A DNA stretch of 64,000 nucleotides from Fictibacillus marinisediminis. GTDB taxonomy: Bacteria > Bacillota > Bacilli > Bacillales > Fictibacillaceae. The stretch lies in assembly GCF_023149135.1 (NCBI RefSeq), contig NZ_JAIWJX010000002.1, positions 930,001-994,000 of the forward strand. The letters are read 5' to 3'. Below, piece by piece: positions 24,183-55,495 of the stretch (positions are counted from its first letter, which is position 1; each line of letters opens with the position of its first letter). The notes under the pieces were generated by a model. That model ran no database searches and had not been told where the DNA came from. It worked only from the letters and a program-made list of their open reading frames with translations. Made by a program: the position numbers and the translations under genes.

Positions 24183-24235
24183 TCTCTTTACATTTTTGAC
24201 CTGAATGGTAAGATGAAGTTAATTAAATAACTATA

Positions 24236-24412
24236 GCAACACTGGGGGAGCCTTTGCCGGCTGAGACTGAACAACCTGTTCTAAACCCTTTGAACCTGAT
24301 CTGGGTGATGCCAGCGTAGGGAAGTGGAATCTGCACTGTATGACACATATAGCTGCTCTTGATTAGAAAACAGATAATCAGCCACTCTTTGCGAAAAGGG
24401 TGGCTTTTTTGC
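24236..24412 (+). promoter_or_regulatory. TPP riboswitch with terminator, controlling tenI-thiOSGF
   Basis: The THI-box elements are visible: GGGGGAGCC, GCTGAGACTGAAC, CCCTTTGAACCTGATCTGG and ATGCCAGCGTAGGGAAG (aptamer about 24240-24325). The terminator stem CAGCCACTC...GGGTGGCT with a T run ends at 24412. TPP binding should stop transcription before tenI. A TTGACC near 24197 is a weak -35 candidate. Confidence 0.94.
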
Positions 24413-28185: not shown

Positions 28186-28357
28186 AGCAATCTGCTAGGG
28201 GGGCCGTACGGCTGAGACTGAACCTTTGTGTTCTAGACCCTTGGAACCTGATCTGGATTATACCAGCGGAGGGAAGCACGCTGAAGCAACAAGCTGATTC
28301 AGAATAGATGACCTCAGCAAAAACCTCAGCCGCCATCTCCCATGAAGGCGGCTTTTT
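28186..28357 (+). promoter_or_regulatory. second TPP riboswitch, controlling the thiamin-salvage operon
   Basis: It shows GGGGGGCC, GGCTGAGACTGAAC, ACCCTTGGAACCTGATCTGG and ATACCAGCGGAGGGAAGC (aptamer about 28195-28278). A terminator AGCCGCC...GGCGGCT with T5 ends at 28357. It starts only a few bases after thiF, so it can also act on read-through from the first operon. Confidence 0.94.
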
Positions 28358-34365: not shown

Positions 34366-35444
34366 TCATCTTTTTGCTTCTTCATTAATGATGGAAAACA
34401 GCTGGTCTAACGCATTACTAAGCTGGCTTTCTTCCATTCTTCTGATATAGGCTTCCTGATTTGAATAAAGCTGCTCGATGCCTTGCAGAAGGGATTCAGC
34501 ATTCAGGTCTTCCTCAAACAGAACTTCGCAATAGCCTTGTTTTTCAAATGATCGGGCATTTTCAATCTGGTCTCCGCGGCTTGCTTCTTTAGAGAGTGGA
34601 ATGAGAAGCATTGGCTTTCTCAGTGACAAAAACTCAAAGATAGAATTAGAGCCTGCTCTTGAAATGACAAAATCCGTTGCTGCAAGGATATCTGGGAGCT
34701 CATCCGATACATATTCGAACTGGATATAGCCTTTTTTCAGAGTGGAAGAATCCTTCTGGCCTTTTCCGCAAAGATGAATGATTTGAAAGCGGGGAAGCAG
34801 AGCGTCCAGGCTTAATCTTACGGCCTCATTTATTTTTTTTGATCCAAGACTTCCTCCCATGATCAAGATGATCGATTTACCAGGAGTCAAACCACAGAAA
34901 GCTCTCCCCTTGGCTGCGATCCCTTCATGCAGCTCCTTACGGATAACCGCACCGGCGTATACCGCTTTTTCCCTTGGGAGATGATCAGCGGTTTCAGGGA
35001 ACGTTGTACACACTTTGTTAGCGAACGGAAGTGAAAGACGGTTTGCAAGCCCTGGACTAAGATCGGATTCATGGGATACAATCGGCACCTTGTTCATCCG
35101 GCTGCCGAGGATTACGGGAACAGATACGAACCCCCCTTTGAAAAGACTACGTCTGGTTTTATGGTCTTGATGAGCCGAAATGCTTCAAATGCTCCTTTCA
35201 TGACACGGAACGGATCTTTAAAATTGTTCCAGTCAAAATAGCGCCTTAGTTTACCAGTAGAGATGCTGTAATAGCGGACGCCTTCGATGGTTTCTGTCAG
35301 TTTCCGTTCAATTCCTCCTTTGGAACCGATATAGCTGACTTCCCAGCCTTCTTTTAAGAACAAAGGAATCAGCGCCAGGTTAACAGAGACGTGCCCGGTG
35401 GAACCTCCCCCGGTGAATACGATTTTCTTGCCCAAACCTTCCAC
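34366..35444 (-). pseudogene. murG: murG paralogue split by a one-base frameshift
   Basis: Two adjacent frames together make one UDP-GlcNAc:lipid I transferase-like protein of about 358 residues. The first (35444-35112) has the MurG P-loop [18 protein letters not shown] and ends [10 protein letters not shown]. The second (to 34366) has [29 protein letters not shown] and [17 protein letters not shown]. One extra G in the G6 run (plus-strand C6, 35131-35136) would join them in frame as [20 protein letters not shown]. It stands outside any cell-wall cluster, as a second MurG does in some Bacilli. Loss of function, or a sequencing slip, are both possible. Confidence 0.88.
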
Positions 35445-35561
35445 CCCTTTTATTTATGTGTTTCTATCATACCAAAAATAATCTGCAATGATTCCAGAAA
35501 TATCTGAATAATGGTTGACGCTCTCCTGTCTGCCGTGATAGAGTAAGACTAATTTAATGAA

Positions 35562-35722
35562 GCTTATCAAGAGCGGCGGAGGGAAAGGCCCAATGAAGCC
35601 CGGCAACCTTCAAGTATTCTACTTGAAAAGGTGCTAAATCCTTCAAAGGTAAAACTTTGGGAGATAAGAGACGGATCGGAACCATACAGCTCTCTTATCT
35701 TCGTGATAAGGGGGTTTTTTGT
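35562..35722 (+). promoter_or_regulatory. SAM-I riboswitch 1 of a tandem pair upstream of hom
   Basis: S-box core: CTTATCAAGAG (P1), GGCGGAGGGA, GGCCC, GAAGCCCGGCAACC, AAAGGTGCTAAATCC and GATAAGAG (P1 3'). Its terminator CTCTTATC...GATAAGGG with T6 ends at 35720. TTGACG (35515-35520) upstream is a possible -35. SAM binding should terminate the transcript. Confidence 0.93.
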
Positions 35723-35768: not shown

Positions 35769-35923
35769 TACTCTTATCCAGAGTGGCGGAGGGAAAGGCC
35801 CGATGAAGCCCGGCAACCTTCAAGTATTCTACTTGAAAAGGTGCTACTACCTGCAGGAAAGAACCCTGGATGATAAGAGGAGGCCGGACTGCAGACCTCT
35901 TCTTTAGGAAGAGGTTTTTTCTT
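35769..35923 (+). promoter_or_regulatory. SAM-I riboswitch 2 of the tandem pair upstream of hom
   Basis: A second complete S-box: CTCTTATCCAGAG, GGCGGAGGGA, GAAGCCCGGCAACC, GGTGCTACTACC and GATAAGAGG, then its own terminator ACCTCTTC...GAAGAGGT with T6. About 44 bases of the core (from ATGAAGCCC to GGTGCTA) are identical to riboswitch 1, while the P1 and expression platforms differ. Confidence 0.93.
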
Positions 35924-37309: not shown

Positions 37310-37338
37310 TTGACAATGGAAAGGATTTTACATATGAT
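37310..37338 (+). promoter_or_regulatory. sigma-A promoter of an unassigned leader RNA
   Basis: TTGACA (37310-37315), 17 bases, TATGAT (37333-37338). Transcription would start near 37345. Confidence 0.75.
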
Positions 37339-37344
37339 GGAAGT

Positions 37345-37672
37345 AACAAAAGGAAGGGAGTTGTATGGATGAGCGTTCACGTTCTTAACTAAGCGAATTG
37401 GATAGTTGGAGCAAAAAGGCCGTGCTTGAAGCGGTTGTATTCTTGATGTCTTTTTGCGGCCACCAATAGTTAAGAACAGCGGTCAGCATACAACATTTTC
37501 ATTTTCGTGTACGTATTTTGTGCAGCGAACGATGCCGCGCTCTTTGGGCGTATTTTTTTATGCTTTTTACAGCTTCCATAAGTCAGGGGACAGCTGTATG
37601 GAGAGGCGTATCCTTCCACACGAAAATTGATTACAGGCAGAAATGGCGGCGGTCCATTTCTGCCTTTTTTTA
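37345..37672 (+). ncRNA. candidate structured leader RNA or small RNA, no known family recognised
   Basis: A transcript of about 330 bases is framed by a good promoter and a strong terminator (GGCAGAAATGG 37636-37646 with CCATTTCTGCC 37654-37664, then T7). Two domains are each closed by a perfect inverted repeat: GTTCTTAACTA/TAGTTAAGAAC (37381-37391 with 37467-37477) and ATTTTCGTGT/ACACGAAAAT (37501-37510 with 37618-37627). Inside the first, GCAAAAAG (37411-37418) pairs with CTTTTTGC (37450-37457). Inside the second, TCCATA pairs with TATGGA. No S-box, T-box, THI, lysine, cobalamin or tmRNA signature is present. The terminator lies about 90 bases before the MutS-like start, which fits a cis-regulatory leader. 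Confidence 0.55.
37365..37388 (+). CDS. possible 7-residue leader peptide
   Basis: A short ORF MDERSRS behind GGAAGGGAG, within the leader RNA. Its last codons and stop overlap the 5' arm of the 11-bp inverted repeat, the layout of attenuator leader peptides. It may also be chance. Confidence 0.3.
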   Translation: MDERSRS

Positions 37673-37762
37673 TTGTCATGATCTGGCCCTGTTCCCAGGA
37701 AAGGGGGGTACGGAAGGTTTTATAGATTAATAATTCGAAAAAATATGAGGAGGCAACTACCA

Positions 37763-39721
37763 TTGAACACCCATACAATGAACATGCTCGAATTTAATAA
37801 AATTACAGAAACCTTATCTGCGTATGCATTAAACGAGAGTACAAAAAGAAAAATTTTAGAGCTTATGCCCTCTGGACAGATCACAATCATTAAGAATTGG
37901 CTAAGAGAGACGACGGAAGCGGCAGCAATTCTTAGAAAGTCTTCAAGCGTTCCTATTGCGAACTTGAACGGGATCGACCATGTGATGACGATTCCGGATA
38001 AAGGCCTTCTCTTAAGTCCTGAACAGCTGCAGCTTATTTACGGGCTTGCAGAAAACGTAGAGCGTTTGCAGCGGTATATGAAAGACAAAGAATTTCTTGC
38101 ACCCGCTGTGTCTGCTTATGCTTACTCCCTGTTTGAACTGAAAGACCTCAAATCTGAAATTCAGCGCTGTATCCGTAATGGAAGAGTGGATGACGGAGCC
38201 AGTAAGCCGCTTGAAAAAGTAAGAAAGAGGATGCTTGCCTGTGAGGAAAAAATCAAAGCAAAGCTGGATCATATTCTAAAGTCACCGGCCTATCGGGATA
38301 TGCTTCAGGAACCAATGATTTCGGTGAGAGACGGAAGGTATGCCATCCCTGTAAAAAGTAAATTTAAACGGAGCATGGATGGGCAGATCATTGATTCCTC
38401 TTCCAGCGGATCCACCGTTTTTATTGAACCGAAAGATGTCCGCAAGCTGCAGGATGAGCTTCAGCTTCTGCAGGCAGAGGAAGACATCGAAACAGCAAGG
38501 GTGCTGGGCAGATTAACAGGTCTGGTTGCAGGCTGCAAACATGAGATTTCAGTTAATATTGAAGGGATGCTTCATTATGATTTTATTTTTGCCAAAGCCA
38601 AATACAGCATCGCCCTTGATGGCAGGGAGGTTTCACTTAATCGTGAAAAACGGACCATTATCCATGAAGGAAGGCATCCGCTGCTCGGAAGCCATGCTGT
38701 TCCTTTGAATTTCCGACTCGGTGAAAACTATGGAGCCCTCGTTATTACGGGTCCGAATACCGGTGGAAAGACGGTAGCCATAAAAACGGCAGGACTGCTG
38801 ACGCTGATGGTTCAGTCGGGGCTTCATATTCCTGCAGGAAAGGGGAGCGAGTTTGGAATCTATTCAGATGTGCTGACAGATATCGGTGACCATCAGAACA
38901 TTGAACAGTCGCTGAGCACATTTTCGGCGCATATGACGAACATTATCTCCATCCTTCAGAAGGCCGGTCCTGATACGCTTGTCATCCTCGATGAACTTGG
39001 TGCAGGAACCGATCCTGCTGAGGGAATGGGGCTGGCTGTAGCCATTCTTGAAGACTTGTTTGAGAGAGGCGCTTCCATTCTAGCCACGACCCATTACAGT
39101 GAGATTAAAGAGTTTGCTTATCTTACTCCAGGATTTGAGAACGCATCGATGGCTTTTGACCTCGAATCTCTAAAGCCGCTTTATGAGCTGAAGATTGGGG
39201 AAGCTGGTGAAAGCCAGGCCTTTTCCATCGCGTGGAAGCTGGGTCTCGAACAAAAGCTGATCACAAGGGCAAAACAAATAACGAGCAAAGAGGTTTCAGA
39301 AAAGAAAGAAAGCACTATGTTCGATTTACTGCATGTAGAAGCACAAACGCAAATGATAAGGAAAAGAAGAGAAGCAGAAGAAGGGAGAAACCGCAAGATA
39401 CGAGAAGCAGAAAAGAAAACGGAAGAAAAACCGGAAGCCCGGACGTTCGAAGTGGGGGATCGGGTGTATGTATCCAGTTTAAAAACGGGGGGCATCATCT
39501 GTTCGGAAGAAGATAAAAGAGGAGAATACGAAGTGATTGTCCAAGGAGAAAAGGTGAAGATCCATAAGCTTCGCCTCACCCTCCATATTTCAAGAACCGA
39601 GCTGTATCCTGAGGGATATGATATGGATATTGTTTTTGAAACCAAGGAAAACCGAAAAAAAGACCGGCTCTTGAGCAAACGTCATGTTGATGGAATGGTG
39701 ATCAACAGAGACGAAGAATAG
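37763..39721 (+). CDS. MutS2-like ATPase without Smr domain
   Basis: A 652-residue MutS-family protein. The core and clamp helices span about residues 20-310 (FIEPKDVRKLQDELQLLQAEE). The ATPase has Walker A GPNTGGKTVAIKT near 330, the ST-motif STFSAHMTNI and Walker B TLVILDELGAGTDPAEG. A coiled, Lys/Glu-rich segment follows (about 515-560), then FEVGDRVYVSSLKTGG. It ends near the point where MutS2 would continue into the linker and Smr nuclease, about 130 residues short of usual MutS2. MutS2 acts in recombination control or ribosome rescue; without Smr any nuclease activity must be absent or separate. TTG at 37763 follows AGGAGG. Confidence 0.85.
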   Translation: MNTHTMNMLEFNKITETLSAYALNESTKRKILELMPSGQITIIKNWLRETTEAAAILRKSSSVPIANLNGIDHVMTIPDKGLLLSPEQLQLIYGLAENVERLQRYMKDKEFLAPAVSAYAYSLFELKDLKSEIQRCIRNGRVDDGASKPLEKVRKRMLACEEKIKAKLDHILKSPAYRDMLQEPMISVRDGRYAIPVKSKFKRSMDGQIIDSSSSGSTVFIEPKDVRKLQDELQLLQAEEDIETARVLGRLTGLVAGCKHEISVNIEGMLHYDFIFAKAKYSIALDGREVSLNREKRTIIHEGRHPLLGSHAVPLNFRLGENYGALVITGPNTGGKTVAIKTAGLLTLMVQSGLHIPAGKGSEFGIYSDVLTDIGDHQNIEQSLSTFSAHMTNIISILQKAGPDTLVILDELGAGTDPAEGMGLAVAILEDLFERGASILATTHYSEIKEFAYLTPGFENASMAFDLESLKPLYELKIGEAGESQAFSIAWKLGLEQKLITRAKQITSKEVSEKKESTMFDLLHVEAQTQMIRKRREAEEGRNRKIREAEKKTEEKPEARTFEVGDRVYVSSLKTGGIICSEEDKRGEYEVIVQGEKVKIHKLRLTLHISRTELYPEGYDMDIVFETKENRKKDRLLSKRHVDGMVINRDEE

Positions 39722-39736
39722 AAGCTGCTAAAATGG

Positions 39737-39790
39737 TTGGTGCCAGGCACCACAATTACACAAGTGTGTAATTACGGTGCCTGGCACCAA
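39737..39790. repeat. GGTGCCTGGCACC-type dispersed element, copy B (complete inverted form)
   Basis: GGTGCCAGGCACC (39739-39751) and GGTGCCTGGCACC (39776-39788) flank the perfect hairpin AATTACACA-AG-TGTGTAATT (39754-39773). The whole element is one inverted repeat with TTGG/CCAA ends. Confidence 0.88.
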
Positions 39791-39833
39791 AACCAAAACC
39801 AAAACCAAAACCAAAACCAAAACCAAAACCAAA
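39785..39833. repeat. hexanucleotide tandem repeat (CAAAAC)n
   Basis: About eight copies of CAAAAC run directly out of the end of repeat element B (CACCAAAACCAAAACC...) up to CAAACAAAAAG. It lies in the intergenic space before a bidirectional terminator, so unit number can vary without breaking a gene. Confidence 0.85.
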
Positions 39834-39835
39834 CA

Positions 39836-39870
39836 AAAAGATCCAGACGCCTCCGCCTGGATCTTTTTGT
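39836..39870. terminator. bidirectional terminator
   Basis: AAAAAGATCCAGACG pairs with CGCCTGGATCTTTTT around a short loop. Shared by the MutS-like gene and the convergent glycine-rich gene. Confidence 0.8.
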
Positions 39871-39882
39871 TCTGCAGTAAAA

Positions 39883-40137
39883 TTAGCAGCTGCTGCTGGA
39901 TTCACATCCACCGAGATGGCCAATCCCGCACGAACAGCCGATGATGATCAAGAGGATAAACAATACGATAATAATCGCAAATCCTCTTCCGCCGCCGTAA
40001 CCGTAGCCGCCGTAGCCGCCGTAACCGTAACCGCCATATCCGTGACATCCGCCGCCATAACCGTACCCGTAAGAAGCTGCAACAGGAACGTTTAGCGGAG
40101 CATTCATCGGTACATTAATCGGTGCGTTTGCATACAT
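39883..40137 (-). CDS. small glycine/tyrosine-rich membrane protein, YjcZ-like
   Basis: An 84-residue protein. An N-terminal [16 protein letters not shown] segment leads into a GYGYGG-type glycine/tyrosine stretch (residues 23-52), then the hydrophobic segment [14 protein letters not shown] and a Cys-rich end ([14 protein letters not shown]). The hydrophobic core is that of the YjcZ sporulation protein family. GGAGGAATTT lies before the ATG. Expression in the forespore or coat is likely by family analogy only. Confidence 0.75.
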
Positions 40138-55117: not shown

Positions 55118-55297
55118 GTGTTTCTTATCCAGAGAGGTGGAGGGATATGGCCCTATGATACCTCGGCAGCAGGTTTTTCTTTTGAAAAACACTGTGCCAA
55201 TTCCAGCAAGTTCCTTTAAGGGGCTTGGAAGATAAGAAGAGCAGCTCGTTTCCTTATGGATACAAAATCTCTTCTTTCTTTAAGAAGAGATTTTTTT
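55118..55297 (+). promoter_or_regulatory. SAM-I riboswitch 1 of the tandem pair upstream of metNIQ
   Basis: TTCTTATCCAGAGAGGTGGA, GGCCCTATGATACC, CGGCAGCAGG, GTGCCAATTCCAGCAAG and AAGATAAGAAGAG form an S-box aptamer (about 55121-55240). The terminator TCTCTTCTT...AAGAAGAGA with T7 ends at 55297. The GATAC in place of GAAGC in the core is a deviation from consensus. Confidence 0.9.
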
Positions 55298-55315: not shown

Positions 55316-55495
55316 TGTTTCTTATCCAGAGAGGTGGAGGGATTGGCCCTTTGAAGCCTCGGCAGCGGGTTTCCGGTTTAATGGGAATACTGTGCCAAGT
55401 CCGGCAAGCGATTAGCGCTTGGAAGATAAGAAGAGATCAGCCACTCATTTCGATGCTTCAGGCCTCTTCTTGTTTTCAAGAAGAGGCTTTTTTTG
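55316..55495 (+). promoter_or_regulatory. SAM-I riboswitch 2 of the tandem pair upstream of metNIQ
   Basis: TTTCTTATCCAGAGAGGTGG, GGCCCTTTGAAGCCTCGGCAG, GTGCCAAGTCCGGCAAG and GGAAGATAAGAAGAG form a canonical S-box (about 55317-55434). The terminator GCCTCTTCTT...AAGAAGAGGC with T7 follows. Confidence 0.95.

Follow-up and report, generated by a model that had tools for sequence, protein, structure and literature searches.

Transcription attenuation is already known as a general mechanism, and in its closest described relatives to our locus a ribosome on a short leader ORF takes part. The hflXr gene of Listeria monocytogenes lies behind the leader rli80, an attenuator with a short ORF that overlaps the anti-antiterminator, and it encodes a homologue of a ribosome-splitting factor (PMC6310831). 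The vmlR leader of Bacillus subtilis has an upstream ORF (uORF) within an anti-antiterminator hairpin, a TTNTTT pause hairpin and an intrinsic terminator (PMC9226507), and the tlrB (yxjB) leader combines ribosome stalling by its leader peptide with NusG-dependent pausing and a terminator (PMC6851288). Stalling at the stop codon of the very short msrD leader uORF, which encodes MsrDL (MYLIFM), permits RNA polymerase to bypass an intrinsic terminator (PMC10314930), and the Escherichia coli uORF toiL is described as sensing at least five drug classes (PMC12121999). As to the targets, B. subtilis MutS2 splits stalled ribosomes, and its Walker B mutant is erythromycin-sensitive, with SMR and KOW mutants being only modestly so (PMC10897456). 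We analysed a stretch of 64,000 nucleotides from Fictibacillus marinisediminis (the window), in which a structured leader precedes a MutS2-like gene. The leader is likely a ribosome-mediated transcription attenuator with an MxxxVLN peptide, for which we infer the trigger and the switch: a ribosome translating the seven-residue leader peptide probably decides on the transcription of the MutS2-like ribosome-rescue gene, and a translation inhibitor probably serves as the trigger.

All leader features in the window are on the forward strand. The sigma-A-type promoter named in a preliminary description of this DNA is present at 37310–37338 (TTGACA at 37310–37315, a 17-nt spacer, and TATGAT at 37333–37338); it matches the consensus and is by itself not significant, as 2 promoter-like sites were observed and 2.2 are expected in shuffles. 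Both perfect inverted repeats of that description are exact, the 11-bp repeat GTTCTTAACTA/TAGTTAAGAAC at 37381–37391 and 37467–37477 with a span of 97 nt, and the 10-bp repeat ATTTTCGTGT/ACACGAAAAT at 37501–37510 and 37618–37627 with a span of 127 nt. The terminator T2 (37635–37672) had been placed correctly together with its T7 tract, and only its stem has to be corrected, from 11 to 12 bp, enclosing a 7-nt loop. Overlooked were the terminator-like hairpin T1 (GCGCTC-TTT-GGGCGT and a T tract, 37537–37559) and a translation signal that gives the 11-bp repeat a new meaning: a Shine-Dalgarno-like AAGGAAGGGAG at 37350–37360, recognized from its letters, is followed at 37369–37392 by a leader ORF of seven codons (ATG AGC GTT CAC GTT CTT AAC TAA, encoding MSVHVLN), which is also backed by comparison with relatives. 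The 5′ arm of the 11-bp repeat is the end of this ORF, and the 5′ arm of the conserved stem (segment 1, 37381–37391) thus comprises the codons V-L-N and part of the stop codon. Directly 3′ of the stop codon, a conserved motif of the AATTNNATA type (AATTGGATA in the window, 37397–37405) has inner letters that covary with the bases preceding segment 2. Segment 2 (37467–37487) consists of the 3′ arm TAGTTAAGAAC and AGCGGTCAGC and may serve as antiterminator. The leader hence has a short ORF with a Shine-Dalgarno site upstream of a terminator, and this ORF overlaps one arm of a conserved alternative stem. Between 36800 and 38200, there are 6 terminator-like sites versus 1.5 expected, and the folding energy of the region is −143.1 kcal/mol versus −118.8 ± 4.9 in 100 shuffles, none of which was as low. 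The 10-bp repeat encloses T1 and had been regarded as the closure of a second RNA domain; as this repeat is complete in only one of four relatives tested (both arms in L038, the 5′ arm alone in L039, neither arm in L040 and L041), we do not consider this domain to be conserved.

The protein search for relatives of the MutS2-like protein yielded 80 loci, from Fictibacillus, Bacillus, Sutcliffiella, Paenibacillus, Brevibacillus, Cohnella and a few other genera, and most of these genes are preceded by GTTCTTAAC and, farther downstream, by GTTAAGAAC. A uORF with a complementary downstream arm was found at 73 of the 78 loci that have upstream DNA (2 of the 80 have none), when we demanded an SD-like site; a start codon followed by three residues of any kind and then by V or I, L or F, and N; a stop codon after at most two further residues; and a downstream arm pairing at 8 or more of 10 positions. 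In five of these 73 (L075, L088, L091, L093, L100), just 8 of 10 positions pair, which may be fortuitous, and such a uORF is absent from the remaining five of the 78 loci (L050, L077, L079, L083, L099). Seven antisense peptides such as MISVVLN were removed before counting, since the other arm has CAU opposite the start codon and the reverse strand consequently also reads ATG; leaders with arms more than 180 nt apart, including L068, were left out of the sets of 120 and 76 leaders. Three of 20 fetched pattern sites (L159, L160 and L169 from genomes G425, G254 and G210) have no complementary arm and were rejected as chance matches.

The peptide consensus is M-S/L-V/A-x-V-L-N-stop. Ser is found at codon 2 in 38 of the 76 non-redundant leaders, encoded by TCN in 28 and by AGY in 10, and Val at codon 3 in 41, through four different codons. 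Codons 5 to 7 are nearly fixed even as nucleotides (GTT 76/76, CTT 74/76, AAC 76/76), although this set is biased, having been selected by the V-L/F-N pattern and the complementary arm. Outside or at the edge of the set, synonymous changes occur with CTG (L075, L088, L091, L100, L096, L250), GTC (L093), GTG (L246) and AAT (L250), next to the non-synonymous replacement of V by I (L098), of L by F (L052, L056) and of N by S (L247, L249). In our own grouping into change events, 6 of 11 are synonymous versus about 26% expected (binomial P 0.04), and we take both the peptide and the RNA to be constrained. The near invariance of the V-L-N codons could also be expected of an attenuator that responds to starvation for Val, Leu or Asn. 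We consider this highly improbable, as a leader contains few V codons at most, one L and one N codon, with variation at positions 2 to 4, as the target genes are not amino-acid genes, and as the window has no T-box match. Fixation of the V-L-N nucleotides beyond the coding need, seen in the pre-selected 76 leaders, would also suit a new riboswitch or a protein-bound RNA with an incidental uORF, and so would the upper-stem sequence of T2, which is kept in many copies. Against this stand the recurrence of the in-frame start, SD site and stop, the synonymous nature of several V-L-N changes, and the four different target families, and we regard such an RNA as quite improbable. Of the 'riboswitch or attenuator class' of the preliminary description, the attenuator is thus the part that we retain.

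The conserved stem was evaluated in alignment A1, which comprises 75 leaders (L056 was left out). Its 16 pairs are formed by standard pairs in 88.0% of cases, and 57 cells changed on both sides, as compared to 28.9 ± 3.8 with shuffled partners and at most 36 with slid partners, kinship being kept in the shuffles. The covarying pairs that the preliminary description wanted to see in relatives are hence present, and they lie mostly in the stem portion past the stop codon, where AATTGG faces CCAAT and AATTCC faces GGAATT, and where only 67.8% of the helix is paired. All 76 leaders have at least one terminator-like hairpin in the 250 nt that follow segment 2 (19.3 expected in shuffles), and 57 of them have at least two (2.0 expected). 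By loose patterns, T1 often contains GTGCT..AGCAC (45/76) and T2 ATGRAC..GTTCAT (36/76). The upper stem of T2 (37635–37665 in the window; L040, L065, L118, L171) is alike before unrelated targets, and judged by its sequence this likeness exceeds the needs of a plain terminator. The sequence TTNTTT, known as a NusG pause motif (PMC9226507), occurs 22 to 42 nt upstream of segment 2 in 43 of 76 leaders, versus 9.4 after dinucleotide shuffling (at most 15 over 50 rounds); the window's own leader copy has no exact TTNTTT.

Rfam offered no known class for this RNA. In the window region, no family reached the gathering score and the four permissive matches were all weak, and among six related loci the best E value was 0.36, below threshold, which agrees, as far as tested, with the earlier statement that the leader matches no known class. 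When 149 genomes were searched at the DNA level, 20 including the genome itself had matches, all of the same family, and four of the five other genomes of the genus had none, which speaks against a simple picture. We found the pattern ATG-N9-GTTCTTAACTA in 73 of 398 Bacilli genomes and its backwards control in 20 (our own count). A covariance model, R1, whose training alignment contains many of the leaders that it recovers, has matches in 76 of the 398 Bacilli genomes at E ≤ 0.01. The R1 table has 91 rows by our count, one of which is the antisense of the G186 copy, leaving 90 distinct leaders. Behind these, we found 67 MutS2-like genes, 21 BpsA-like genes, one GNAT gene (PF13302, 77.1 bits) and one APH-family kinase gene that is barely above threshold (24.4 versus 23.2 bits). 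The 67 include weak R1 matches in G421 (MSVCVLS) and G492 (MSVMVVLN) that look real and a doubtful one in G292 (MSVVGSK). The BpsA-like targets carry the domain BpsA_C (PF01861, 142.9 bits for L136), and their PDB relatives are named N4-bis(aminopropyl)spermidine synthase. In 13 of the 76 genomes, two or three leader copies stand before different genes: 11 of these genomes combine one MutS2-like with one BpsA-like gene, G514 has one MutS2-like and two BpsA-like genes, and G350 one MutS2-like and the APH-like gene. The BpsA-like copy stands alone in eight genomes. BpsA-like copies are mostly found in genomes of a family (f68) that we take for Brevibacillaceae, because its leaders resemble those of the named Brevibacillus loci. 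A phylum-wide sample contained the inverted-repeat pattern in 6 of 398 genomes, all of the taxonomic class to which the window belongs, although Candidatus Formimonas (L047) also carries the leader. Elsewhere in the F. marinisediminis genome, only weak or short matches were seen. Three pattern matches in viral contigs (L210–L212) have neither a start nor a stop codon at the proper place and, judged by the open frames, lie inside coding sequence; they were dismissed as chance. The window leader had no plasmid match; the BpsA-type leader had one, covering 24% of the query, in the Paenibacillus plasmid pHD01 (L213), where a MutS2-like gene follows the leader fragment at a distance of about 430 bases, with an integrase nearby.

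This distribution bears on two further explanations. The preliminary description had also considered an independent small RNA, which would act in trans and merely be situated before the gene. Its own promoter and strong terminator would fit, both models predicting a short terminated transcript, but since the leader precedes the same genes in many genera and, in those 13 of 76 genomes, occurs repeatedly before different genes, we regard this as barely conceivable and support the other proposal made there, a cis-regulatory leader of the MutS2-like gene. Alternatively, the leader peptide could sense a metabolite or ion, for example polyamines, or a general slowing of translation, rather than a drug. 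The 21 of 90 copies before BpsA_C proteins, with their relation to N4-bis(aminopropyl)spermidine synthase, point in this direction, but 67 of 90 precede the MutS2-like gene, which has no known polyamine link, and the GNAT and APH targets, single cases though they are, suit a drug response better; we therefore judge this explanation to be unlikely. A ribosome-mediated attenuator that responds to translation inhibitors remains our preferred reading.

The MutS2-like ATPase of the window is encoded by the ORF at 37745–39721 (forward strand), as indicated by family profiles and relatives. Its start codon is probably the TTG at 37763, which lies behind AGGAGG (37748–37753) and is preferred because relatives begin with MN..T..LEY. 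The protein shares 98% identity with its counterpart in Fictibacillus sp. FJAT-27399, and its Walker motifs are intact, columns 336–343 and 416–417 being invariant in 24 sequences. It reaches 603 bits with the MutS2 profile TIGR01069 (positions 2–531 of 790), above the curated cut-off of 400, and a second, separate match covers profile positions 598–689. Pfam gave no match to an Smr domain, so that the C-terminal Smr domain typical of MutS2 is lacking, and there is a conserved C-terminal tail, LYPxDYDMDIVFESKENRKK. A full-length MutS2 (1024 bits) is encoded elsewhere in the same genome. The absence of Smr is compatible with a ribosome-splitting role, because the SMR mutants of B. subtilis MutS2 are just modestly erythromycin-sensitive. 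Around this gene, the window also holds a short tandem repeat encoding a KT/FG dipeptide run (39756–39944, between the MutS2-like gene and the ORF that follows it); two pairs of SAM riboswitch aptamers in tandem (35561–35670 and 35771–35879, preceding a homoserine dehydrogenase-like ORF, and 55122–55238 and 55319–55432); two TPP riboswitches about 4 kb apart (24234–24339, 28187–28291); and, on the minus strand at 34366–35444, two adjacent ORFs in different frames that by eye jointly resemble a MurG-type glycosyltransferase, possibly split by a frameshift.

The attenuator could work as follows. RNA polymerase would slow down within the hairpin as a ribosome is loaded onto the uORF. Without stress, the ribosome would finish and leave, segments 1 and 2 would pair, T1 and T2 would form, and the gene would be off. 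If translation is blocked at or near the uORF stop codon, the likeliest cause being an antibiotic that targets the ribosome and acts together with the MxxxVLN nascent peptide, the stalled ribosome would cover segment 1, and the freed segment 2 would catch the 5′ arm of T1 during its synthesis, so that transcription enters the gene. The MutS2-like protein would then split or rescue the blocked ribosomes, as proposed by analogy to hflXr behind its Listeria attenuator. The antiterminator is the weakest link of this scheme, and folding supports it only weakly. In modelled nascent RNA ending before the 3′ arm of T1, masking of segment 1 raised the capture of the T1 5′ arm by segment 2 from 0.048 to 0.206, with a rise in 70 of 76 leaders; since a shuffled segment 2 reaches 0.146 (real higher in 36/76, P 0.13), this capture cannot be called specific. 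With T1 complete and the uORF masked, the mean pair probability of T1 at equilibrium fell only from 0.868 to 0.853, and capture exceeded 0.3 in one of 76 leaders. A duplex test of the antiterminator, in which 37 of 76 leaders could be parsed, was marginal, since 203 of 5000 permutations did as well, and a ribosome-mask folding of 15 leaders was set aside, as several ended before T1 was complete. The scheme would also require both tandem terminators to be overcome, which speaks against it.

In the literature searched, which left most subscription papers and preprints outside, we found no description of this leader class, its peptide or its targets; bis-aminopropyl spermidine synthase did not occur there together with a leader, and MutS2 together with a leader peptide occurred in a Pseudomonas review alone. 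Tentatively, and with slightly less than even confidence, we propose that the MxxxVLN-stop leader acts as a drug-sensing attenuator which is new and widespread in Bacilli and marks two unrecognized translation-acting tolerance families, an Smr-less MutS2 paralogue splitting drug-blocked ribosomes and a BpsA-like aminopropyl transferase, and that GNAT- and APH-type enzymes took the leader over singly. An unexplained RNA thereby becomes a concrete, testable switch, with model R1 as a searchable signature of its class. If the proposal is true, MutS2-type ribosome rescue is tied to an inducible stress or drug response, with BpsA-like enzymes as another branch, and the leader could be used as a marker to find genes with a hidden translation-stress role behind it.

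Judged by sequence, and as far as the sources cited describe their systems, the parts of the leader, a uORF in a putative anti-antiterminator, a pause motif, a terminator and a presumed translation-stress gene, correspond to the layout of vmlR, tlrB, msrD and hflXr. The target shares the clamp/ATPase core and a match in the KOW region with B. subtilis MutS2 (PDB 7qv3, 8qpp), but is a shorter paralogue without Smr and with its own conserved tail. The differences from each leader, according to these sources, are as follows: the hflXr ORF has 14 residues with an RLR motif, and the gene family is HflX (PMC6310831); the vmlR uORF encodes the tripeptide MIN, stalling occurs at initiation, and the target is an ABCF protein (PMC9226507); the tlrB peptide has nine residues with RYR, its target is an rRNA methylase, and translation attenuation is also involved (PMC6851288); and msrD differs in peptide and target and has a known inducer, a macrolide (PMC10314930). 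The V-L-N-stop end matches none of RYR, RLR, MYLIFM and MIN as given there, and the inducer may therefore be another drug class or stress; since toiL senses at least five drug classes, the MxxxVLN leader could also be a broad sensor.
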